Shown here piece by piece: positions 28,908-39,527 of a stretch of DNA of 64,000 bases. Every line of letters begins with the position of its first letter. The stretch's first letter is position 1. The notes under the pieces were generated by a model. It had not been told where the DNA came from, ran no database searches, and was given only the letters and a program-made list of their open reading frames with translations. Source of the stretch: Nocardioides iriomotensis (lineage in GTDB: Bacteria > Actinomycetota > Actinomycetes > Propionibacteriales > Nocardioidaceae); the NCBI RefSeq assembly GCF_004168035.1, contig NZ_SDPU01000028.1:186001-250000 (forward strand), read 5' to 3'. A program made the position numbers and the translations under genes.

Positions 28908-31900
28908 TCAGGGCAGCAACCCGTCGCGGCGGGCGATGGCGGCCGCCTCGGTGCGCCCGGCGGCACCGAGCTTGGCGAGAATGTTGCTGACGTGCACGCT
29001 GACGGTCTTGGCGCTGATGAACAGCTGCCGCCCGATCTCGCCGTTGCTGCGGCCCTCGGCGACGAGAGACAGGATCTCGGCCTCCCGGGCGGTCAGCTCG
29101 CTGGGCGACTCGGCGCGCGCTCGAGGGCCGCCGGCGCCGCGCAGCTCGGTGAGCAGCGGCTCGGCGTCGAGCCGCTCCGCGGTCGCGCGGGCGGCGTCGA
29201 CCAGCGGCCGCGCCTCGTCGGAGCGGCCCGCGGCGCGCAGGACGGCGGCCAGGCGGGCCTGGGAGCGGGCCGTCTCGAACGCGTTGCCCATCAGGTCGAA
29301 CGCGTCGACGGCTGCCTGCCAGGCCGCGACCAGGTCGTCCTCGGCGGGCGGTTCGACATCGGCGAGCCAGCGCAGCCGGAGGTGCTCGGCATGGGCCCGG
29401 GCGAGCCAGGCGTTGCCCTCGGGACCGAATGGACGCTTGCGCTTCTTGACCCGCTGTCGGGCCCCCTCGACCGCGCCGAGGAGCGGCGGCAGCCGGTCGA
29501 CCAGAGCGGCGCGTTCGGCGGCGGACAGGCGTGGCGCCGCGGACGCGAGCTGGCCGAGCAGGACGGCGACGAAGCGGATGCGGGCCTGGAAGTGCTCGCT
29601 CCACATCGCCGAGAGCGCTGCGACGCCTTCGTCGTGGACGGCGATCGCTGCGTCGAGGTCACCCGCGTCGCCGTGCGCGTCGATGGCGGCCGGGACGGTC
29701 AGGACGGGGATCATGCCGTCCTTCTCCCAGTGCGGTCGGAGCCGGTCGTGCATGAGCCGGCCGTCGGGCTCGCCGCGGCCGGCGGCCACCGTCATGCGGA
29801 CCGCGTCGAGCAGCGCCTCGGCGACCGGCGGGCCCGGGGTGCTGACCCGGTCGGCCGCGGCGAGCGCGTCGTCCCACGCGCCGCGCTGGTAGTGGGTGAG
29901 CGCCTCGAACAGCCGCGAGTCGAAGCCGTACGGCGCCCACGGCCGGCCGGCGGTGCGGGCCACCTGGTCGCCCGCGCGGAAGGACTCGGCCGCCGCCGGA
30001 AGGTCGGCGCGTTCGTGGTGGAGGTGGCCGATCAGGAACTGGCTGCGCATCTCGGTGGCGGTGTCGCGGGTCGCGCGAGCCCGGCTGACGATGCCCTCGA
30101 GGGCCCGGAGCGCGGCGTCCGGGTCGCCGACGCGCTGGTCGACACCCGCGAGGGTCGTGGTCGCGTCGGCGACGACCATGGCCAGGTCGAGCTTCTGGGC
30201 CAGGCCCAGGGCCTCGGTCGCGAACTGGGCGGCGTCCTCGTCGCGGCCGTGGGCGAGCTGGGCCCGGGCGTGGACGGCCAGCAGCTTGCCGCGCAGCGGG
30301 CTGGGCTCGTCGTCGACGAGCGCCATCGCCTCGGTGGTCGCGTCGAGCGCCTGCTCGTCGTCCTCCGTGAGCAGGGTGGCGCCGGCCCACGCCATCAGGA
30401 GACGCGCCCGGTGGTGGGCGGGCGCGTCTCCCGGGAGACGAGACAGCTGGTCGCGCACGAGCTTCTGGGCGCGTTGCGGGTGGCCGGACGCGATCACCGC
30501 GTCGCTGGTGCGCATGACCAGCGAGATCGTGTCGACGTCCTCGGGCAGCGCGCGGCGCGGGTCCGACAGCAGCTCGAGCGCGGCCTCGTAGTGCTGGGCG
30601 GCCTCGTCGGGACCACCGACCGACATCGCGTCGTCGCCGGCCTCGATGCTGGCCCGCAGCGCGGTGTCGAGGTCGTGGGCGGCGCGGGCGTGGCGGGCGA
30701 GCTCGGCGGCGGTGCCGTCGACGGCCTGGCTGCCGATGGCCTCGGCGTACGCCGCGTGCAGCCGGACGCGTTCGCCCGGGAGCAGGTCGTCGTAGACCGC
30801 CTCGGCGAGCAGCGCGTGCCGGAAGGCGTAGCCGTCGGCGCCCACCCGGACCAGCACGTGCGACTCGACGGCGGCGCGGACGGCGCGCTCGAAGGTGTCG
30901 GGGTCGAGGTCGAGGACCACGCTGAGCATCGCGTGCGGGACCCGGCGGCCGGCGACCGAGGCGGCGCGGACCACCCGCCTGCCGTCGTCGTCGAGCCGGT
31001 CGAGCCGGACCAGCAGGAGGTCGGCGAGGTCGTCCGGCAGTCCGTGCGCGCCGAGCTCGGCGGCGACGAGCTCCTCGGCGAAGAACGCGTTGCCCTCGGC
31101 GCGCGTGACGATCGTCAGCAGGTCGGCCTGGGACAGCTCGCCGCCGTGGAGCGTGCGGACGAGTCGCCGTACGTCGGCGTCGGCGAGGGGCGGCAGCGCC
31201 ACCCGCACCACGCCCGGGACGCGCACCCACTCGGCCACCGTCGTACGCAGCGGGTGGCGGCGGTGGAGGTCGTCGGAGCGGTAGGAGACGACGACGGCGA
31301 CGGGGTTGCGGAACGGGCGGGAGAAGAGGAAGGAGAGGAGGTCGCGGGTCGAGCGGTCGGCCCAGTGGGCGTCCTCGACCACGACGAGGAGGGGCGTGTC
31401 GGCGGCGAGCTCGTCGAGCGCGCCGTGGACGGACTCGAACAGGTCGCCGCGGTCGAGGCCCTCGCCGGGACTCGCGGCGGCGCCGGACAGCATGCGGCGG
31501 CCGGGCTGGAGGTGGAGCAGTGCGGGGTGCTGCTCGGTGAGGTGGCGGGTGGCCTCGGCGTCGGAGCGCTCGAGGCGGCCGAACAGCTCGCTGAACGGGA
31601 GGTAGGGCAGGGCGCTGTCGCCGAAGTCGAGGCAGTGGCCGACCGCCGTACGCCAGCCGGCGCTCTCCGCCCGCGCGATCAGCTCGCCGAGGACGCGGGT
31701 CTTGCCGACCCCGGCGTCGCCGGCGAGGAGGACAGCACGCGACCGCGGCTCGTCGTCCAGGCCGATCTGCTCGGCGAGGTGGGCGAGCTCGCGGTCGCGT
31801 CCCAGGATCGGTGCGGCGGCGTCGGTGTCAGGGGCCACGAGCCCCATCATCTCGCCGACGACCGACAGGTGGCGCGCGGTTTTCGCGTCGTCACCCGGGG

Positions 31901-31985
31901 CGTCCTGCTCGGTGTCGCTGGATTCGGTGGTGCCGGTGGTGCCGGTGGTGCCGGCCGGCGCCGCCGCGACCTGCGGGATGCTCAT
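28908..31985 (-). CDS. Large ATP-binding LuxR-family regulator (LAL / MalT-like)
   Basis: A 1025-residue regulator. After a low-complexity N-terminus (GTT repeated three times, from a 9-bp tandem repeat) comes an AAA-type NTPase with Walker A GDAGVGKT (89-96) and Walker B-like LLVVVEDAHWAD. A long helical TPR-like middle follows. The C-terminal LuxR HTH (about 960-1020: LTAREAEILSLVAEGRSNGEIGRQL, then SAKTVSVHVSNIL) binds DNA. LAL regulators act as ATP-dependent activators of nearby or distant operons. The small Arg-rich ORF 31995-32174 precedes it by nine bases, so both are probably on one transcript. Confidence 0.92.
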   Translation of the reverse strand: MSIPQVAAAPAGTTGTTGTTESSDTEQDAPGDDAKTARHLSVVGEMMGLVAPDTDAAAPILGRDRELAHLAEQIGLDDEPRSRAVLLAGDAGVGKTRVLGELIARAESAGWRTAVGHCLDFGDSALPYLPFSELFGRLERSDAEATRHLTEQHPALLHLQPGRRMLSGAAASPGEGLDRGDLFESVHGALDELAADTPLLVVVEDAHWADRSTRDLLSFLFSRPFRNPVAVVVSYRSDDLHRRHPLRTTVAEWVRVPGVVRVALPPLADADVRRLVRTLHGGELSQADLLTIVTRAEGNAFFAEELVAAELGAHGLPDDLADLLLVRLDRLDDDGRRVVRAASVAGRRVPHAMLSVVLDLDPDTFERAVRAAVESHVLVRVGADGYAFRHALLAEAVYDDLLPGERVRLHAAYAEAIGSQAVDGTAAELARHARAAHDLDTALRASIEAGDDAMSVGGPDEAAQHYEAALELLSDPRRALPEDVDTISLVMRTSDAVIASGHPQRAQKLVRDQLSRLPGDAPAHHRARLLMAWAGATLLTEDDEQALDATTEAMALVDDEPSPLRGKLLAVHARAQLAHGRDEDAAQFATEALGLAQKLDLAMVVADATTTLAGVDQRVGDPDAALRALEGIVSRARATRDTATEMRSQFLIGHLHHERADLPAAAESFRAGDQVARTAGRPWAPYGFDSRLFEALTHYQRGAWDDALAAADRVSTPGPPVAEALLDAVRMTVAAGRGEPDGRLMHDRLRPHWEKDGMIPVLTVPAAIDAHGDAGDLDAAIAVHDEGVAALSAMWSEHFQARIRFVAVLLGQLASAAPRLSAAERAALVDRLPPLLGAVEGARQRVKKRKRPFGPEGNAWLARAHAEHLRLRWLADVEPPAEDDLVAAWQAAVDAFDLMGNAFETARSQARLAAVLRAAGRSDEARPLVDAARATAERLDAEPLLTELRGAGGPRARAESPSELTAREAEILSLVAEGRSNGEIGRQLFISAKTVSVHVSNILAKLGAAGRTEAAAIARRDGLLP

Positions 31986-32673: not shown

Positions 32674-33909
32674 TCAGTGGTCGGGCAGGTCGCGGAGGTG
32701 GCGGACCGGGCTGGCCAGCAGGATCAGCGGCGACAGCACGGTGAGCGCGGCGAGCACGAGCAGCGCGTCCCGGGCACCCAGCCAGGTCGCGAGGGCGCCC
32801 GCGGCGAGGCCGCCGAGCGGGATGGCGCCCCACGAGACGAACCGCACCGTGGCCATCACCCGCGAGAGCATCTCGGGCGGGCTGGCGATCTGGCGGTACG
32901 TGCGGGTGCAGGTCGAGAGCACGACCACGCCGCCGGCGAAGACGACGTTGCCGAGGGCGAACATGAAGTACCCGACGACCCCGCTCCCGACCGGGATCAG
33001 GAACGCCCCGCCGACGGACACGAAGCCCGCGACGACACAGGCCCGGGCGGACCCCACCGCACGGACGACCGAGGGCACGAGGGCGGCGCCGACGAGCGAG
33101 CCGATTCCCTCGGCGGCGAGCAGGAAGCCGACCAGGGCGGCGGGGGCGTCGAGGTCGCGCACGAGGTACAGCGCGAACAGCGCCATCTGGCCGCCGCACA
33201 CGAAGTTCGTCGCGGTCGCGTCCCACATGCAGGGCCCCATGATCGGGTGCCGCGTCACGTACTCCCAGCCCTCGCGGATCATCGCGCGCATCGGCGGCCG
33301 GTCCGGCGACGGCACGTGCCGCTCGGGCAGGCGCCGCAGCAGGACGGCCGAGACGACGTACGACGCGGAGTTCACCAGCAGGGTCGGCACGGCGCCGAGC
33401 AGCGAGACGCACACGCCGCCGAGCGACGGGCCGCCGAGCTGGCTCGCGGCGTGCGTGCCGCTCATCAGCGAGTTGCGGGCCTGCAGCTGCTCCTTGGGTA
33501 CGACGGAGGGCAGGAAGGTCGAGTTGGCCACGTCGAACAGCACGTTGGCGAAGCTGGTGACGAGAGCGACCACGACGAGCTGCGCGACCGACAGCACCCC
33601 CAGCCACCAGGCGACCGGGATCGACGCGACGGCAAGAGCCCGCGCGACGTCCATCCCGACCTGGAGCCTCCGCAGCGGCAACCGCTGGGTGATCACGCCG
33701 GCCGGCAGGCCGATGACGAGCCAGGCGACGTAGGCCGCCGCCGCGATCACGCCCATCTCGAACGCGGTCGCGTCGAGCGCGAGCAGCGCCGTCAGCGGCA
33801 GCGCGACCGCACCGACCGCCGACCCGACCGCGCTGGTCGCGCCGGCCGACCAGTAGGTCCAGAACGCCCGTGTCCCCGACGACTCGCGCTGCTCGCGTGT
33901 AAGTTCCAT
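32674..33909 (-). CDS. MFS transporter divergent from the HxlR-peroxiredoxin regulator
   Basis: A 411-residue protein with about twelve hydrophobic segments, of the same exporter-like MFS group as 26798-28111 (loop VITQRLPLRRLQVGMD; central loop RHVPSPDRPPMRAMIREG). The ATG at 33909 (MELTREQRESSG) was preferred to 33924. A -35/-10 pair (TTGCGG, 18 bp, TATGGT) ends ten bases before 33909, so the transcript would be nearly leaderless, and the start codon lies inside a palindrome. The divergent regulator gene starts 71 bases away. Likely an efflux pump induced by whatever that regulator senses; substrate unknown. Confidence 0.85.
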   Translation of the reverse strand: MELTREQRESSGTRAFWTYWSAGATSAVGSAVGAVALPLTALLALDATAFEMGVIAAAAYVAWLVIGLPAGVITQRLPLRRLQVGMDVARALAVASIPVAWWLGVLSVAQLVVVALVTSFANVLFDVANSTFLPSVVPKEQLQARNSLMSGTHAASQLGGPSLGGVCVSLLGAVPTLLVNSASYVVSAVLLRRLPERHVPSPDRPPMRAMIREGWEYVTRHPIMGPCMWDATATNFVCGGQMALFALYLVRDLDAPAALVGFLLAAEGIGSLVGAALVPSVVRAVGSARACVVAGFVSVGGAFLIPVGSGVVGYFMFALGNVVFAGGVVVLSTCTRTYRQIASPPEMLSRVMATVRFVSWGAIPLGGLAAGALATWLGARDALLVLAALTVLSPLILLASPVRHLRDLPDH

Positions 33910-33918
33910 AATGGAACT
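33902..33918. promoter_or_regulatory. Palindromic operator over the MFS start codon
   Basis: AGTTCCAT-A-ATGGAACT is a perfect inverted repeat with 8-bp arms. It covers the MFS ATG (33907-33909) and the expected transcription start. The nearest regulator gene is the divergent HxlR fusion, the likely ligand. Confidence 0.6.
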
Positions 33919-33919
33919 G

Positions 33920-33949
33920 ACCATAGAGGCTGCCCCGCACCACCCGCAA
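33920..33949 (-). promoter_or_regulatory. Promoter of the MFS gene
   Basis: On the minus strand TTGCGG (33944-33949) and TATGGT (33920-33925) are separated by 18 bp. The -10 ends ten bases before the ATG at 33909, so the leader would be only a few bases. Confidence 0.45.
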
Positions 33950-33980
33950 CCGGGAGGATCGACCTCGTGAGGAGGAACCC

Positions 33981-34859
33981 GTGAGGCGCGACGACCTGAC
34001 CGACGCGACCTGTGGCATCGCCCAGGCGCTGGGCGTCGTCGGCGACTGGTGGACGTTCCTCGTCGTGCGCGAGGTGGCCGGCGGCACGACCCGCTTCGAC
34101 GGCATCCAGGCCGCGCTCGGCATCAGCCGCAGGGCTCTCACCGAGCGGTTGACCCACCTCGTCGAGCACGGCGTCCTCGTGCGCACGCCGTACAGCGAGC
34201 GGCCGCCGCGCCACGACTACCTCCTCACCGCCAAGGGCGAGGGCCTGCTGCCGGTGCTGCTCGCGCTGCAGGAGTTCGGCGACCGGCACGTGCTCGGCGA
34301 CGGCGCCGTGACCGCGACGGCCGCGGCCTCCTCGGCCGAGGCGCAGCGCGTGCACGACCTCGTCGGCCACCGGGTCGCCGACGTCGGCCTGCCCGCGCAC
34401 ACGGGAGACGAGGTGCGGCTCCGGCCGGCCGAAGGGTGGCGCGTCGTCTACTTCTTCCCCGGTGCGTTCGCCCCGGGCGCGCAGGCCTACCCCGCCGGCT
34501 GGGGCGACATCCCCGGCGCGGCCGGCTGCACGCTCGAGTCGACGACGTACGCCACGCACCACGACGAGTTCGTCGCCGCAGGCGCCGAGGTCGTCGGGGT
34601 CAGCTCGCAGCGCACCGACCAGCAGGCGGCGTTCGCCGAGCACGCCGGGCTGCCGTTCCGGCTGCTGTCCGACGTCGACCTCCGGGTGGGTACGGCGATG
34701 CGGCTGCCGGCGTTCCGGGTGGCCGGCACCGACCGCTACAAGCGCCAGACGCTGCTGCTCGATCCCACCGGCACGGTCCGGCACGCGCAGATGCCGATCA
34801 CCGACCCGGCCGGGTCCGTCACCGAGATGTTGAGCGCGGTCCGCGAGCTCGCCGGCTAG
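33981..34859 (+). CDS. HxlR-type transcriptional regulator fused to a peroxiredoxin domain
   Basis: A 292-residue two-domain protein. Residues ~5-105 form an HxlR winged helix ([61 protein letters not shown]). Residues ~128-292 form an AhpC/TSA-Bcp-like peroxiredoxin fold: [21 protein letters not shown] with the presumed peroxidatic Cys183, [16 protein letters not shown], and [12 protein letters not shown]. There are exactly two cysteines: Cys11, at the place where HxlR sensors such as HypR keep their redox Cys, and Cys183. Between the FFP and GCT segments there is a ~15-residue insertion relative to Bcp. GGAGG precedes the GTG start at 7 bases. Divergent to an MFS gene. Probable thiol-redox or peroxide sensor; that role is inferred. 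Confidence 0.85.
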
Positions 34860-36007
34860 ACCCGCCGGCCGCCGACGTACACCTCCCGCACCAGCGGCAC
34901 CCCCGGCCGGTAGGCGAGGTGGATCGCCGACGGCGCCTCCAGCACGACCAGGTCGGCACGGGCCCCGACGCGCAGGTGGCCGACGTCGTCCCGGTCGAGC
35001 GCCTCGGCGCCGCCGAGGGTCGCGGCCCGCACGGCCTCGACCGGCGACATCCCCATCTCCCGCACGGCGAGCGCCACGCACAGCGGCATCGAGGACGTGT
35101 AGCAGGACCCCGGGTTGCAGTCGCTCGCGAGCGCGACGCGGACGCCGGCGTCAAGGAGCCGCCGGGCGTCGGGGTACGGCGAGCGGGTGGAGAATTCCAC
35201 ACCCGGCAGCAGCGTCGCGACCGTGCCGGTGTCGGCGAGGGCGGCGACGTCGGAGTCGTCGAGGTACGTGCAGTGGTCGACCGCGACCAGGCCGAGCTCG
35301 CAGGCGAGCTGCACGCCGGGACCGGGGCCGAGCTGGTTGGCGTGCAGCCGGCCGCGCAGCCCGGCGACCGCCCCGGCGGCGAGCACGGCCCGCGTCTGGT
35401 CGACGTCGAAGGCGCCGCGCTCGCAGAACACGTCCACCCACCGCGCGTGCGGCGCGCAGGCCTCGAGCATCGGACCGGTGACGAGGTCGACGTACTCCTC
35501 CGGCGTCGTCCCCTCCGGCACCACGTGCGCGCCGAGGAACGTCGTCTCCTCGGTGAACTGCCGCGCGACCGCGAGGCTGCGCGCCTCGTCGCGCACGCTC
35601 AGGCCGTAACCGCTCTTCACCTCGACCGTCGTCGTCCCCTGCCGCCGCATCTCGTCCACCAGCCGCGCGACGTTGGCGGTCAGCTGCTCGTCGGTCGCGG
35701 CACGCGTGGCGGCGACGGTGGTGCGGATCCCGCCGGCGGAGTACGGCGTCCCGGTCATCCGGGCCGCGAACTCCTGCGCCCGGTCGCCGGCGAACACCAG
35801 GTGCGAGTGCGAGTCGACGAAGCCCGGGACGACCGCCCGACCACCCACGTCGTACGACGCATCGGCCGCGGGCGCGCTGCGGGCGGAACCGGTCCAGGCG
35901 ACGCGGCCGGACTCGACGACGACCGCGGCGTCGGGCAGCGGGGCGTGCCCGTGCTCCGGGTCGTGCGAGGTCAGCTCGGCGACACCGGTCAGCAGCAGCG
36001 AGGTCAT
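34856..36007 (-). CDS. hutI: Imidazolonepropionase
   Basis: A 383-residue amidohydrolase, third step of histidine breakdown: imidazolone-5-propanoate to N-formimino-L-glutamate. Metal and substrate motifs are visible: [12 protein letters not shown] near residue 70, [21 protein letters not shown] and [15 protein letters not shown]. The ATG at 36007 overlaps the hutF stop by four bases, so the pair is co-translated. Its 3' end converges with the HxlR-peroxiredoxin gene, overlapping by four bases. Confidence 0.95.
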
Positions 36008-37305
36008 GCGTCCCATACCTTCCGGATGACGGCGTCCAGCTCGGCGCCCACGTCGCGCCGGTCGTCGGCCGTGGCGACCACGACGCCGTCGGCGACGACG
36101 TGGACGACGTCGGCGGCGGTCGCGGCGAACACGGCCGTGGCCTCCCCTGCGCCGGTCCCCGCCGTGCGCGGGCTCGTGGTGTCGAGCGTGACCAGGTCGG
36201 CCCGCGCCCCCACCTCGATCCGGCCGGCGTCGGCGAGGCCGAGCGAGCGGTGGCCGACGGACGTGGCGGCCGCGAGCAGCTCGCCGGACGCCCAGTGCCC
36301 GCGCTGCTCGCTGGCGAGCCGCTCGTCGAGCTCGACCGCGCGCATCTCCTCGAACAGGTCGACCACCGCGTGGCTGTCGGAGCCGAGGGTGAGCGGCGCC
36401 CCGGCCTCGTGCAGCTGCCGCGACGGGCCGATCCCGTCGCCGAGGTCCCGCTCGGTGGTCGGGCAGAAGCAGGCGTACGTCCGCGACTCCCCCAGCACCG
36501 CGACGTCGCCGGCGGTCAGGTGGGTGGCGTGCACGGCCGACGTCCGGTCGCCCAGCGCGCCCGCCTCGCCGAGCAGCGCGGTGGGCGTGATGCCGTAGGC
36601 GTCGAGGCACTGGTCGTTCTCGGCGACCTGCTCCGACAGGTGCACGTGCAGCGGCGCCTCGTGCCGAGACGCCCAGGCCGCGACGAGCGGCACCTGCTCG
36701 CGCGGGACCGCGCGGACGGAGTGGACCGCCGCGCCCCGGTGCGGCACGTCGAGCGCCTCGACCCGTTCCGCCCACGCCTCGGCCGTCCCGTCGCTGAACC
36801 GGCGCTGCACGCCCTCGGGCTCCCGACCGATGCCGGCCGCGAGGTAGCAGGTGTCGAGCAGCACGACCCGCACCCCGGCCTGCCGGCCGGCCTCGACGAG
36901 CGCGTGGCCCATCGCGTTCGGGTCGTCGTACGGCGTGCCGTCGGGGCCGTGGTGGAGGTAGTGGAACTCGCCCACGGAGGTGATGCCCGCCAGCGCCATC
37001 TCGCGGTACGTCGCGCGGGCCAGGGCGAGGTAGCCGTCGGGGTCGAGCCGCGCGGCGACGGCGTACATCTGCTCGCGCCAGGTCCAGAACGTGCCGCGGT
37101 CCTCCTGCGTCCGGCCGCGCAGCGCGCGATGGAACGCGTGGCTGTGGCAGTTGGCGAGACCAGGAATCGTCAAGCCGGCAAGGCGTTCCGCGCCGTCGGC
37201 ACCGCCGTGGTTCACCGCGGCGAACCGGCCGTCCTCGACCTCGACCCGCACCCCCTCGACGACCCCGTCGGGCAGCAGCGCACGCTCCAACCACCACCCG
37301 CTCAT
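36004..37305 (-). CDS. hutF: Formimidoylglutamate deiminase
   Basis: A 433-residue amidohydrolase that converts N-formimino-L-glutamate to N-formyl-L-glutamate plus ammonia, the branch that needs a deformylase afterwards. Metal ligands are seen in [38 protein letters not shown] and [10 protein letters not shown]. Length matches the family. It is followed directly by hutI. No hutG-type deformylase is in the window; an M20 amidohydrolase is nearby. Confidence 0.95.
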
Positions 37306-37376
37306 GCGGCCATCCTCCCGTCGGGTGCGCCAGACAGGGGTGGACGGCGCGCCGCGGCAGGGGCACCGTGGGCACC

Positions 37377-37664
37377 ATGACGACCATGAGCCTCCCCCTC
37401 GTCAGCACCTGCAGCGTCGACGGCTGCTCGTACAACCACGACCACGACTGCCACGCCGGAGCGATCACGGTGACCGGCTCGTCGTCGGCGTGCGGGACGT
37501 ACGTCCACACCGATGCCAAGGGCGGCGCGGACAGCACCGCGACGGTGGGGGCGTGCCACCGGACCGACTGCGTGCACAACTCCGCCCTGGAGTGCACCGC
37601 CCACGACGTCGAGGTGGGTCCGGGGGCGGACGTCGCCGACTGCCTGACCTTCAGCGCGCGCTGA
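37377..37664 (+). CDS. DUF1540-containing cysteine-rich small protein (two repeats)
   Basis: A 95-residue protein made of two copies of the DUF1540 Cys motif: [14 protein letters not shown] with a later ACGTY, then [14 protein letters not shown] with a later ADCLTF. The eight cysteines and several His suggest binding of two zinc ions or similar. DUF1540 proteins have no defined role. The start is uncertain among GTG 37368, ATG 37377 and ATG 37386; the middle one is used. It is divergent from hutF and ends in a hairpin shared with the M20 gene. Confidence 0.8.
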
Positions 37665-37674
37665 AGCGCGCGCT
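37653..37674. terminator. Bidirectional hairpin between DUF1540 and M20 genes
   Basis: AGCGCGCGC-TGAA-GCGCGCGCT forms a perfect 9-bp stem with a tetraloop. It overlaps the DUF1540 stop and lies eight bases from the M20 stop. The overlapping palindrome TTCAGCGCGCGCTGAA is at 37650-37665. Confidence 0.55.
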
Positions 37675-37681
37675 GACCCGG

Positions 37682-38881
37682 TCACTGCTCACCGCCTGAC
37701 AGCAGCGCCAGCGTGTCCGCGAGCGCGGTCACGCCGGCCAGGCAGTCCGCGGTCTCGGCGTGCTCGTCGGGGCTGTGCGAGACGCCGGTCGGGTTGCGGA
37801 CGAACAGCATCGCGGTCGGGACGCCCGCCGCGGACAGCACGCCTGCGTCGTGGCCGGCCATGGTCGGGATGACCGGCCAGCGGTGCGGCTCCGCGATCCG
37901 CGCGGCGAGGGCGGGGTCGAACGCCACCTCGGGTGACACCGACTCGGCGGTCACCGTGAGCGACGTGCCGTCCCGGCCGGCGCGTTCTTGCGCCTGCCGC
38001 TCGACGTCGGCGAGCAGCTGCTCCAGCGCGGTCGACGACTCGGCGCGCGCGTCGAGCCACGCGGTCACGTGGGAGGGGACGGCGTTGGTGCCGTTGGGGC
38101 GTACGTCGACCCGTCCGAACGTCGCGCGCTGCCCGGAGACCCGGGCCTGCTTGTTGGCGGCCAGCGCGGTCATCGCATAGCTGAGCATCGGGTCGCGCCG
38201 GTCCTCCATCCGGGTGGTGCCGGCGTGGTTGGCCTCGCCCGCGAAGTCGAACCGGTAGCGCCCGTGCGGCCAGATCGCGCTGGCCACGCCCACCGCCTCG
38301 TCGCGGTCGACAAGGTCGCGGCCCTGCTCGACGTGCAGCTCGACGAACGTCGCGACCCCGTCGAGCCAGGTGCCGCGCGAGCCGTCGAGCCCCTCGTCGG
38401 CCAGCGCGTCCTCGAGCGCGAGACCCTCACGGTCGCGCAGCACCCGGGCCGTCTCCCACGACGTCGCGCCGGTGAGCAGCCGGGAGCCGAGGCAGGCCAG
38501 GCCGAAGCGCGAGCCCTCCTCCTCGACGAACGCGCCGACCGCGACCGGCCGGCGCGGCTCGAACCCGCGACCGCGCAGCACGTCGACGGCGGCCAGCGCC
38601 GACACGACGCCCAGCGGTCCGTCGTACGCACCGCCGTCGAGCACGGAGTCGAGGTGCGACCCGGTGAGCACGGCGTCGGTGCGGCCGGTCCCCCACCAGG
38701 CGACGAGGTTGCCAAGCCCGTCGCGCTCGACGGCGAGCCCGCGCGCCTCGGCCTGCTCGACGAACCACGCCCGCGCCTCCCGTTCCGGGGCCGTCCACGG
38801 CTGCCGGAAGTACCCGCCGCTGCTCGCCGACCGGCCCAGCGGGAGCAGGTCGCGCCACATCTGCTCGAAGTCGTCAGTCAC
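37682..38881 (-). CDS. M20-family amidohydrolase (allantoate amidohydrolase / N-carbamoyl-amino-acid hydrolase type)
   Basis: A 399-residue dinuclear-metal hydrolase. Metal-site segments are clear: TGSHLDSVLDGGAYDGPLG, AFVEEEGSRFG, EANHAGTTRMEDRRDP and AGHDAGVLSAAGVP. The GTG at 38881 was chosen because GGGAG lies five bases upstream; the ATG 12 bases earlier would overlap it. Family members cleave allantoate or N-carbamoyl amino acids. Here it sits within a hut cluster that has HutF but no HutG, so it may release formate from N-formylglutamate; that role is inferred. It starts 10 bp from the divergent nitroreductase. Confidence 0.88.
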   Translation of the reverse strand: MTDDFEQMWRDLLPLGRSASSGGYFRQPWTAPEREARAWFVEQAEARGLAVERDGLGNLVAWWGTGRTDAVLTGSHLDSVLDGGAYDGPLGVVSALAAVDVLRGRGFEPRRPVAVGAFVEEEGSRFGLACLGSRLLTGATSWETARVLRDREGLALEDALADEGLDGSRGTWLDGVATFVELHVEQGRDLVDRDEAVGVASAIWPHGRYRFDFAGEANHAGTTRMEDRRDPMLSYAMTALAANKQARVSGQRATFGRVDVRPNGTNAVPSHVTAWLDARAESSTALEQLLADVERQAQERAGRDGTSLTVTAESVSPEVAFDPALAARIAEPHRWPVIPTMAGHDAGVLSAAGVPTAMLFVRNPTGVSHSPDEHAETADCLAGVTALADTLALLSGGEQ

Positions 38882-38891
38882 GATGGCTCCC

Positions 38892-39527
38892 ATGGAGTTC
38901 CAGGATGTCGTACGTCGTCGTCGGATGGTGCGCAGCTACGACCCCGACCGCCCGGTGGACCCCGCGGTGGTGGAGCGGCTGCTGGACAACGCGGTCCGGG
39001 CGCCGAGCGCGGGGTTCAGCCAGGGCTGGGGGTTCCTCGTGCTGGAGTCTGCCGAGGACCGCGCCCGGTTCTGGGAGGCCACCTCCGACGACGCCGGCGA
39101 CGACGGGGCGCCGGACGGCTGGCTCACCGGGATGATGACGGCGCCGTTGATCGTGGTTCCCCTGTCCTGCAAGGAGATCTACCTCGAGCGCTACGCCCAG
39201 GACGACAAGGGCTGGACCGACAAGGACGAGTCGCGCTGGCCGGTGCCGTACTGGGACATCGACACCGGCATGGCGTCGCTGCTGATCCTGCAGACCGCCG
39301 TCGACGAGGGCCTGGGGGCGTGCTTCTTCGGCGTGCCGCCGGCGAGGATGGAGGCGTTCCGCACGGCGTTCGACGTGCCGGCGGCGTACACCCCGATCGG
39401 CGCGATCACCGTCGGCCACAAGCCGGCCGACCCCGCGCAGACCGGCGCGAAGGGCAGCCCGACGCGACGGGCGCGTCGGGATCCGGGCGAGGTGGTGCAC
39501 CGCGGCCGCTGGACGGCGCGTCCGTAG
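38892..39527 (+). CDS. Nitroreductase family protein
   Basis: A 211-residue flavin (FMN) oxidoreductase of the NfsA/NfnB fold. FMN-binding features are RRRRMVRSYDPDRPVD at the N-terminus, LDNAVRAPSAGFSQGW, and DEGLGACFFGVPP, with the later ITVGHKP. It carries a Trp-rich insertion (GWTDKDESRWPVPYWD, ~residues 110-125). Substrate unknown. Its ATG at 38892 is only 10 bp from the divergent M20 start, so promoters must lie in coding sequence. It lies in the hut region but has no known role in histidine breakdown. Confidence 0.85.
   Translation: MEFQDVVRRRRMVRSYDPDRPVDPAVVERLLDNAVRAPSAGFSQGWGFLVLESAEDRARFWEATSDDAGDDGAPDGWLTGMMTAPLIVVPLSCKEIYLERYAQDDKGWTDKDESRWPVPYWDIDTGMASLLILQTAVDEGLGACFFGVPPARMEAFRTAFDVPAAYTPIGAITVGHKPADPAQTGAKGSPTRRARRDPGEVVHRGRWTARP

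Follow-up and report, generated by a model that had tools for sequence, protein, structure and literature searches.

Can a bacterial transcription factor carry its own peroxide sensor as a second domain of the same polypeptide, and which thiols would then couple the two parts? This question is raised by a 64,000-nucleotide stretch of the Nocardioides iriomotensis genome (contig NZ_SDPU01000028.1, positions 186,001 to 250,000; referred to here as the window, with positions counted from its first letter), in which one gene joins an HxlR-type winged helix to a domain of the peroxiredoxin (Prx) fold. The first-pass annotation, made from the letters alone, had proposed that peroxide oxidizes Cys183 of the Prx domain, which then forms a disulfide with Cys11 of the HxlR domain and changes DNA binding. 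The reading that we favor, and hold to be somewhat probable, is that of an HxlR-type transcription factor which controls its own gene, has a thiol-peroxidase-like sensor built in and would act as a redox-responsive regulator of a transporter. Its domain architecture, the invariant cysteines, the conserved upstream site, the divergent neighbor and the patchy absence of a cysteine at C+5 (five residues after Cys183) are established by sequence comparison.

The fusion protein and its family

33981..34859 (+), HxlR-Prx fusion gene, defined by its open reading frame (ORF), translation, Pfam matches and G+C by codon position
34035..34289 (+), HxlR winged-helix domain, residues 19-103 (Pfam PF01638, E 5.7e-20; profile against solved structures)
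34347..34856 (+), PrxQ/BcpB-like peroxiredoxin-fold domain, residues about 123-292 (Pfam PF00578/PF08534; AlphaFold2 model against 5epf)
34011..34013 (+), codon of Cys11, the N-terminal cysteine of the HxlR part in helix 1 (117/117 fusions; 20/20 close stand-alone HxlR proteins)
34527..34529 (+), codon of Cys183, at the peroxidatic-cysteine position in the first turns of a helix (117/117 fusions; two models)

The gene is a single ORF with a GTG start and a TAG stop, encoding 292 residues. Residues 19-103 score 71.4 bits with the HxlR family PF01638, against a curated cut-off of 20.8, and a profile of the fusion family matched 4gcv among the solved HxlR-type structures (E 6.8e-32); the best NCBIfam match is RrpB, which stays below its cut-off (48.8 of 175 bits). 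The C-terminal part is matched by AhpC-TSA over residues 181-268 (E 4e-19) and by Redoxin over residues 129-272 (E 9.7e-10). The G+C content at third codon positions stays at 0.96-1.0 in the same frame from the HxlR part across the linker into the Prx part, hence the join is real coding sequence. The earlier view of one 292-residue protein combining HxlR and Prx is borne out by the ORF, the Pfam domains and the codon-position composition, and the translation confirms that it has exactly two cysteines, Cys11 and Cys183.

The HxlR-Prx fusion is an actinobacterial family that is widespread yet patchy. A scan with one genome per species found 10 full-length relatives with 58-67% identity to the window protein, in the genera Nonomuraea, Amorphoplanes, Janibacter, Knoellia, Isoptericola, Agromyces, Mangrovihabitans and Krasilnikoviella. 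From the window's order, 293 genomes yielded at least 41 matches spanning residue ≤10 to ≥280, the window's own among them, and a genus with large genomes (g58) has at least 59 full-length matches, in 58 of its 199 genomes. Matches at E ≤ 1e-45 occur in 4 of 396 genomes sampled from the phylum (including the window's; one match lies only in the Prx part), and matches at E ≤ 1e-60 in 13 of 296 sampled from the class (including the window's; one is a broken copy). The intact fusions collected number 117 with that of the window, and because all of them share the domain order and both cysteines, the fusion is more than a chance event; HxlR and AhpC-TSA domains were found in all 26 members that were scanned singly. 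Cysteine-containing motifs led to the first 40 fusions, with 0/40 candidate loci lost thereby, and a profile led to the other 77. L198, L188, L094 and L149-L155 were excluded before counting, the last two sets not being HxlR fusions, L059 was kept in the counts though it runs off its contig, and full-length matches outside the counted set are G046, G066, G057 and G020 from the order scan and G765, G802 and G740 from the scan of g58.

Two of the excluded loci are degenerate: L198 is a broken copy in which residues 1-65 and the operator are gone, and L188, on plasmid NZ_CP108366.1, is a remnant in which just the Prx end is left, within a frame that is otherwise unrelated. In five plasmid records the match spans 80% or more of the query; two of them annotate the gene, as no more than 'winged helix-turn-helix transcriptional regulator', and the other three list none at this place.

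The operator-like site and the divergent neighbor

33902..33918 (no strand), operator-like palindrome AGTTCCATAATGGAACT, perfect around one central base, with weaker outer arms to about 33897-33923
32674..33924 (-), divergent transporter gene of the major facilitator superfamily (MFS) (Pfam MFS_3/MFS_1; TIGR00900 below cut-off; start uncertain, ATG at 33924 or 33909)

The core of this palindrome, GTTCC-N5-GGAAC, is the sole site at ≤1 mismatch in the 64-kb window. When the 150 bases upstream of the fusion gene were compared across 104 loci, the core was exact at 77, had one mismatch at 20, two at 4 and more at 3, so that a site at ≤1 mismatch precedes 97/104 fusions (window included), as compared to 9 of 2080 single-base shuffles of the upstream sequences (0 exact, 9 with one mismatch). 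The consensus across the fusions is AGTnAGTTCC-N5-GGAACtnACT, and 10 of the 13 intact members found later have a site at ≤1 mismatch. The palindrome noted in the first-pass annotation is therefore present, perfect and conserved, and its role as an operator is strongly supported by comparison; the predicted binding of the fusion protein to this site at its own promoter is likewise well supported. Since a site at ≤1 mismatch is also found upstream of 12/20 close stand-alone HxlR genes, the palindrome is the type of site that belongs to this branch of HxlR regulators. By eye, the stand-alone HxlR genes L163-L168 seem to have two tandem GTTCC-N5-GGAAC-like sites upstream. Throughout the 4.7 Mb of the window's genome there are four exact sites, the core of AGTTCCATAATGGAACT being one; the other three have no outer arms that could be recognized by eye, one of them lies upstream of a gene that looks PadR-like, and no clear further target emerges among the exact sites for a wider regulon.

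AGTTCCATAATGGAACT overlaps the 5' end of the MFS gene, and both elements of the earlier claim, namely the divergent MFS gene and a palindrome at its start, are present in the window. The MFS gene is a probable co-target of the operator-like site. For the 104 loci, divergent neighbors were typed with eight query proteins drawn from the loci (that of the window and seven others), whose families were assigned by Pfam: the neighbor is an MFS gene at 79 loci, enolase-like at 8, DapD-like at 5, an ABC-2 permease at 5, an O-methyltransferase at 4 and none of these at 3. A transporter as neighbor suits a response to oxidants and a response to an exported compound alike.

The peroxiredoxin-fold domain and the resolving-cysteine position

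AlphaFold2 monomer models were obtained from 26 aligned members (mean predicted local confidence, pLDDT, 80.8; predicted TM-score, pTM, 0.73) and from 71 aligned members (mean pLDDT 86.9; pTM 0.83). The first of these matched Mycobacterium tuberculosis BcpB (5epf) with Z 21.6 over 152 residues at a root-mean-square deviation of 2.1, followed by other PrxQ/BCP structures and AhpE, in a comparison to solved structures that spans mainly residues 122-292, the HxlR part being assigned from sequence profiles. The modeled C-terminal domain thus has a peroxiredoxin fold, in agreement with the first-pass assignment. With PrxQ/BCP enzymes, and BcpB 5epf in particular, the domain shares the fold, a cysteine at the start of the active-site helix (residues 183-192 in one model and 180-192 in the other, with Cys183 within the first turns), a Glu at C+3 and a conserved Arg. 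Across the 117 fusions Cys183 and Glu186 are found in 117/117, Pro160, which stands 23 residues ahead of Cys183, is invariant, and Arg255 is kept in 116/117, the remaining one being a gap; Arg255 probably represents the conserved active-site Arg, its catalytic role being assigned from its position in the sequence. In contrast to PrxQ/BCP enzymes, the window protein has 16 extra residues between Pro160 and Cys183, Asp at C-7, Ala180 at C-3 and no cysteine at C+5. The placement of Cys183 in a peroxidatic segment therefore stands as regards fold, helix position and invariance, but the canonical Pro and Thr/Ser of such a segment are absent in the window, and peroxidase activity of the domain is plausible, not assured.

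A resolving cysteine at C+5 characterizes the alpha type of PrxQ. In the window protein this position is Thr188, so the PrxQ resolving cysteine is lacking. It is present in 4/4 sampled stand-alone relatives of the Prx branch (L060, L061, L062 and L094) and absent in 49 of the 64 HxlR fusions that remain at <88% identity (15 have a cysteine at C+5, 3 at C+4 and 46 at neither). An IQ-TREE phylogeny of 77 rows requires five changes of the C+5 state, each forced by well-supported branches, of which one separates two ordinary BCP rows and the other four fall inside the Prx branch; L094 and L061 form long branches, and whether all HxlR fusions go back to one origin is neither shown nor excluded by the tree. 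The absence of the C+5 cysteine is the best argument that Cys11 may resolve Cys183, although mycothiol or Cys183 of the partner subunit would explain it equally well.

The same Prx branch is also found behind a different regulator. In genus g58, loci L149-L155 encode a MerR/CueR-like DNA-binding part in frame with it (7/7 fetched, of at least 18 candidates), and Pfam recognized MerR together with Redoxin/AhpC-TSA in both of the MerR-Prx proteins scanned. Like the window protein, these combine a regulator and a Prx domain of this branch in one frame; they differ from it in the kind of DNA-binding part and in keeping the pair C(P)-x4-C, with a cysteine at C+5 in 7/7. In the phylogeny they are intermingled with stand-alone Prx proteins, in a group (100/98) that contains no HxlR fusions, and MerR-Prx is apparently a fusion event separate from HxlR-Prx, which suggests that the joining of a regulator and a Prx domain arose more than once. 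Because two regulator families apparently captured the Prx domain independently, it probably acts as a sensor. Upstream of L149 and L150, a palindrome of the MerR-promoter kind can be seen by eye.

Mechanism and rival explanations

In the mechanism that we propose, an HxlR dimer would sit on AGTTCC-N5-GGAACT between its own gene and the MFS gene and most likely repress both. An oxidant, be it peroxide, another oxidant or an electrophile, would react with Cys183, as suggested by the fold and by the conserved Cys183, Glu186 and Arg255, and the oxidized Prx domain would alter the DNA-binding dimer such that the promoter is released. Coupling could occur by a Cys11-Cys183 disulfide or by a conformational change following a mixed disulfide. 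In members that lack the PrxQ resolving cysteine, such as the window protein, the sulfenate of Cys183 could turn only to Cys11 of the same or the partner subunit, to Cys183 of the partner, to another protein or to a small thiol, e.g., mycothiol, and among these the Cys11-Cys183 disulfide would be the most economical way to couple both domains. Binding, repression, the identity of the oxidant, the direction of the response and the disulfide are steps that we infer. A peroxide relay within one polypeptide, in which oxidation would pass from Cys183 to a disulfide with Cys11 within or across the dimer and so switch the shared operator of regulator and transporter, can be put forward only tentatively. 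If it holds, Cys11 would have taken over the role of the PrxQ resolving cysteine, and the disappearance of the latter from most HxlR fusions would be the trace that evolution left of this.

Several observations weigh against a redox sensor of this kind, or against the part given to Cys11 within it. The first-pass annotation had asked whether both cysteines are conserved together, and they are (Cys11 and Cys183 each in 117/117 intact fusions, window included); however, the Cys11 position is also a cysteine in 20/20 stand-alone HxlR proteins that match the HxlR part closely, and 11 of another 12 have it too, the exception (L024) probably being read in the wrong frame. Joint conservation was rejected as proof of a relay, because Cys11 is equally invariant without any Prx domain and the conservation cannot separate a relay from an ordinary HxlR regulator with an appended Prx domain. 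As many as 37 fusions could resolve Cys183 locally, having a cysteine at position 188 (33/117) or 187 (4/117), and among the 80 without either, 27 have Cys158. An ordinary unfused BCP protein (L064) also lacks the C+5 cysteine, and the changes at C+5 are read as losses rather than gains by parsimony only, with the deepest forks open. The active-site motif of PrxQ/BCP enzymes, PxxxT/SxxC, is not matched by window residues 176-183 (DIPGAAGC, with Asp at C-7 and Ala180 at C-3); across the 117 fusions, C-7 is Pro in 7, and C-3 is Ala in 77, Thr in 33, Gly in 4 and Ser in 3. The loop from Pro160 to Cys183, which exceeds that of the aligned ordinary BCP rows by 16 residues, is of low confidence in both models, and Cys11 falls in a low-confidence region as well (block 11-20, pLDDT 56). 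Finally, the typical neighbor is a transporter rather than an antioxidant gene, and the site is found at ≤1 mismatch upstream of 0/4 of the other HxlR genes in the window's genome.

Some of these points would fit a one-cysteine sensor, in which Cys183 forms a mixed disulfide with mycothiol, a thiol used by actinobacteria, or with a partner of the thioredoxin/mycoredoxin type, as does mycobacterial AhpE, and this alone shifts the DNA-binding domain; there would be no Cys11-Cys183 disulfide, and Cys11 would be the usual HxlR cysteine. This is rather unlikely in our estimate, even though most HxlR fusions lack the C+5 cysteine, Cys11 is conserved whether fused or not, and AhpE, a close match in fold, is named a 1-Cys peroxiredoxin in its PDB entries, one being of the mycothiol-exposed protein; the 37 of 117 fusions with a cysteine at C+4 or C+5 would not need a small thiol. 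Alternatively, the Prx fold may have become a binding or reaction pocket for an exported compound (an electrophile, quinone, epoxide or antibiotic) without peroxidase function, with Cys183 being alkylated or taking part in binding, in which case the locus would encode a compound-responsive regulator and its exporter. The divergent MFS genes (79/104) and ABC-2 permeases (5/104), the lack of the canonical Pro and Thr/Ser together with the enlarged loop in the window, and the O-methyltransferase (4) and enolase-family (8) genes that neighbor other loci are all compatible with this, but the invariance of Cys183, Glu186 and Pro160 and the near invariance of Arg255 in 117 members is what a reactive thiolate would need, and we regard the pocket as unlikely. 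Improbable, in our view, is that regulator and peroxidase are joined without redox coupling and that the fusion just fixes their stoichiometry. The C(P)-x4-C pair in 33/117 fusions could cycle as in ordinary enzymes, but most HxlR fusions have no C+5 cysteine, MerR regulators separately captured the same Prx branch, and an autoregulated regulator, which would be scarce, makes a poor host for a scavenging enzyme.

The redox-responsive regulator with a Prx sensor can be compared to several known systems. Redox-sensing HxlR/DUF24 regulators, i.e., YodB, CatR and HypR of Bacillus subtilis, QsrR of Staphylococcus aureus and RrpA/RrpB of Streptococcus, share the HxlR winged helix and the N-terminal cysteine. 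An excerpt of one report gives the N-terminal cysteines as Cys14 in HypR, Cys7 in CatR and Cys6 in YodB, the latter also having Cys101 (PMC6943732). In YodB-type two-cysteine regulators the second cysteine lies inside the HxlR domain, whereas the window protein has none there and carries a complete C-terminal Prx-fold domain instead. Excerpts of another report describe Cys11 as a conserved residue that reportedly senses electrophiles or oxidants elsewhere in the family, and B. subtilis HxlR itself as a formaldehyde sensor acting via a Cys11-Lys13 crosslink (PMC7835342). The fusions belong to the same family and have the same cysteine in helix 1, but residue 13 is Ile in 97 and Val in 7 of 104 (Ile13 in the window) and Lys in none, which rules out formaldehyde sensing by such a crosslink in 104/104. 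In the yeast Orp1-Yap1 and Tpx1-Pap1 relays, as far as an excerpt describes them, peroxidase and transcription factor are two separate proteins (PMC5339411); a peroxidase thiol and a regulator thiol would likewise be paired here, but in one polypeptide and through a signaling disulfide that is hypothetical.

None of the open-licence papers listed in literature searches deals with an HxlR-Prx or a MerR-Prx fusion, judging by the titles and abstract openings on display, which is a weak absence; PMC12724145 was dismissed as a precedent, its regulator being of the XRE type. Redox-sensing HxlR regulators, PrxQ enzymes and two-protein relays are already known, and the HxlR-Prx fusion is filed as a new variant of the redox-sensing HxlR regulators. 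In yeasts and animals, the known relays between peroxidase and transcription factor involve two proteins. With the fused family, in which 43/117 members have Cys11 and Cys183 as their only thiols, the chemistry of such a relay would become testable in a single small protein for which a DNA site is predicted.

Some features of the surrounding genes are added here. At eight loci of genus g58 (L140-L144 and L146-L148) an enolase-family gene is divergent, with the operator-like site between the two genes, and is possibly an alternative enolase under redox control. A divergent O-methyltransferase gene is found in L135, L136, L138 and L139, and a divergent gene resembling tetrahydrodipicolinate N-succinyltransferase in L092, L095, L107, L113 and L137. 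In the window, the 3' end of the fusion gene overlaps by four bases the convergent hutI, the first of a series of minus-strand genes at 34856-38893(-) that comprises hutI (34856-36025) and hutF (36004-37305), both of histidine utilization, and an allantoate-amidohydrolase-like gene (37682-38893). On the other side, 28908-31985(-) encodes a LuxR-type regulator of 1025 residues with an AAA_16 domain.

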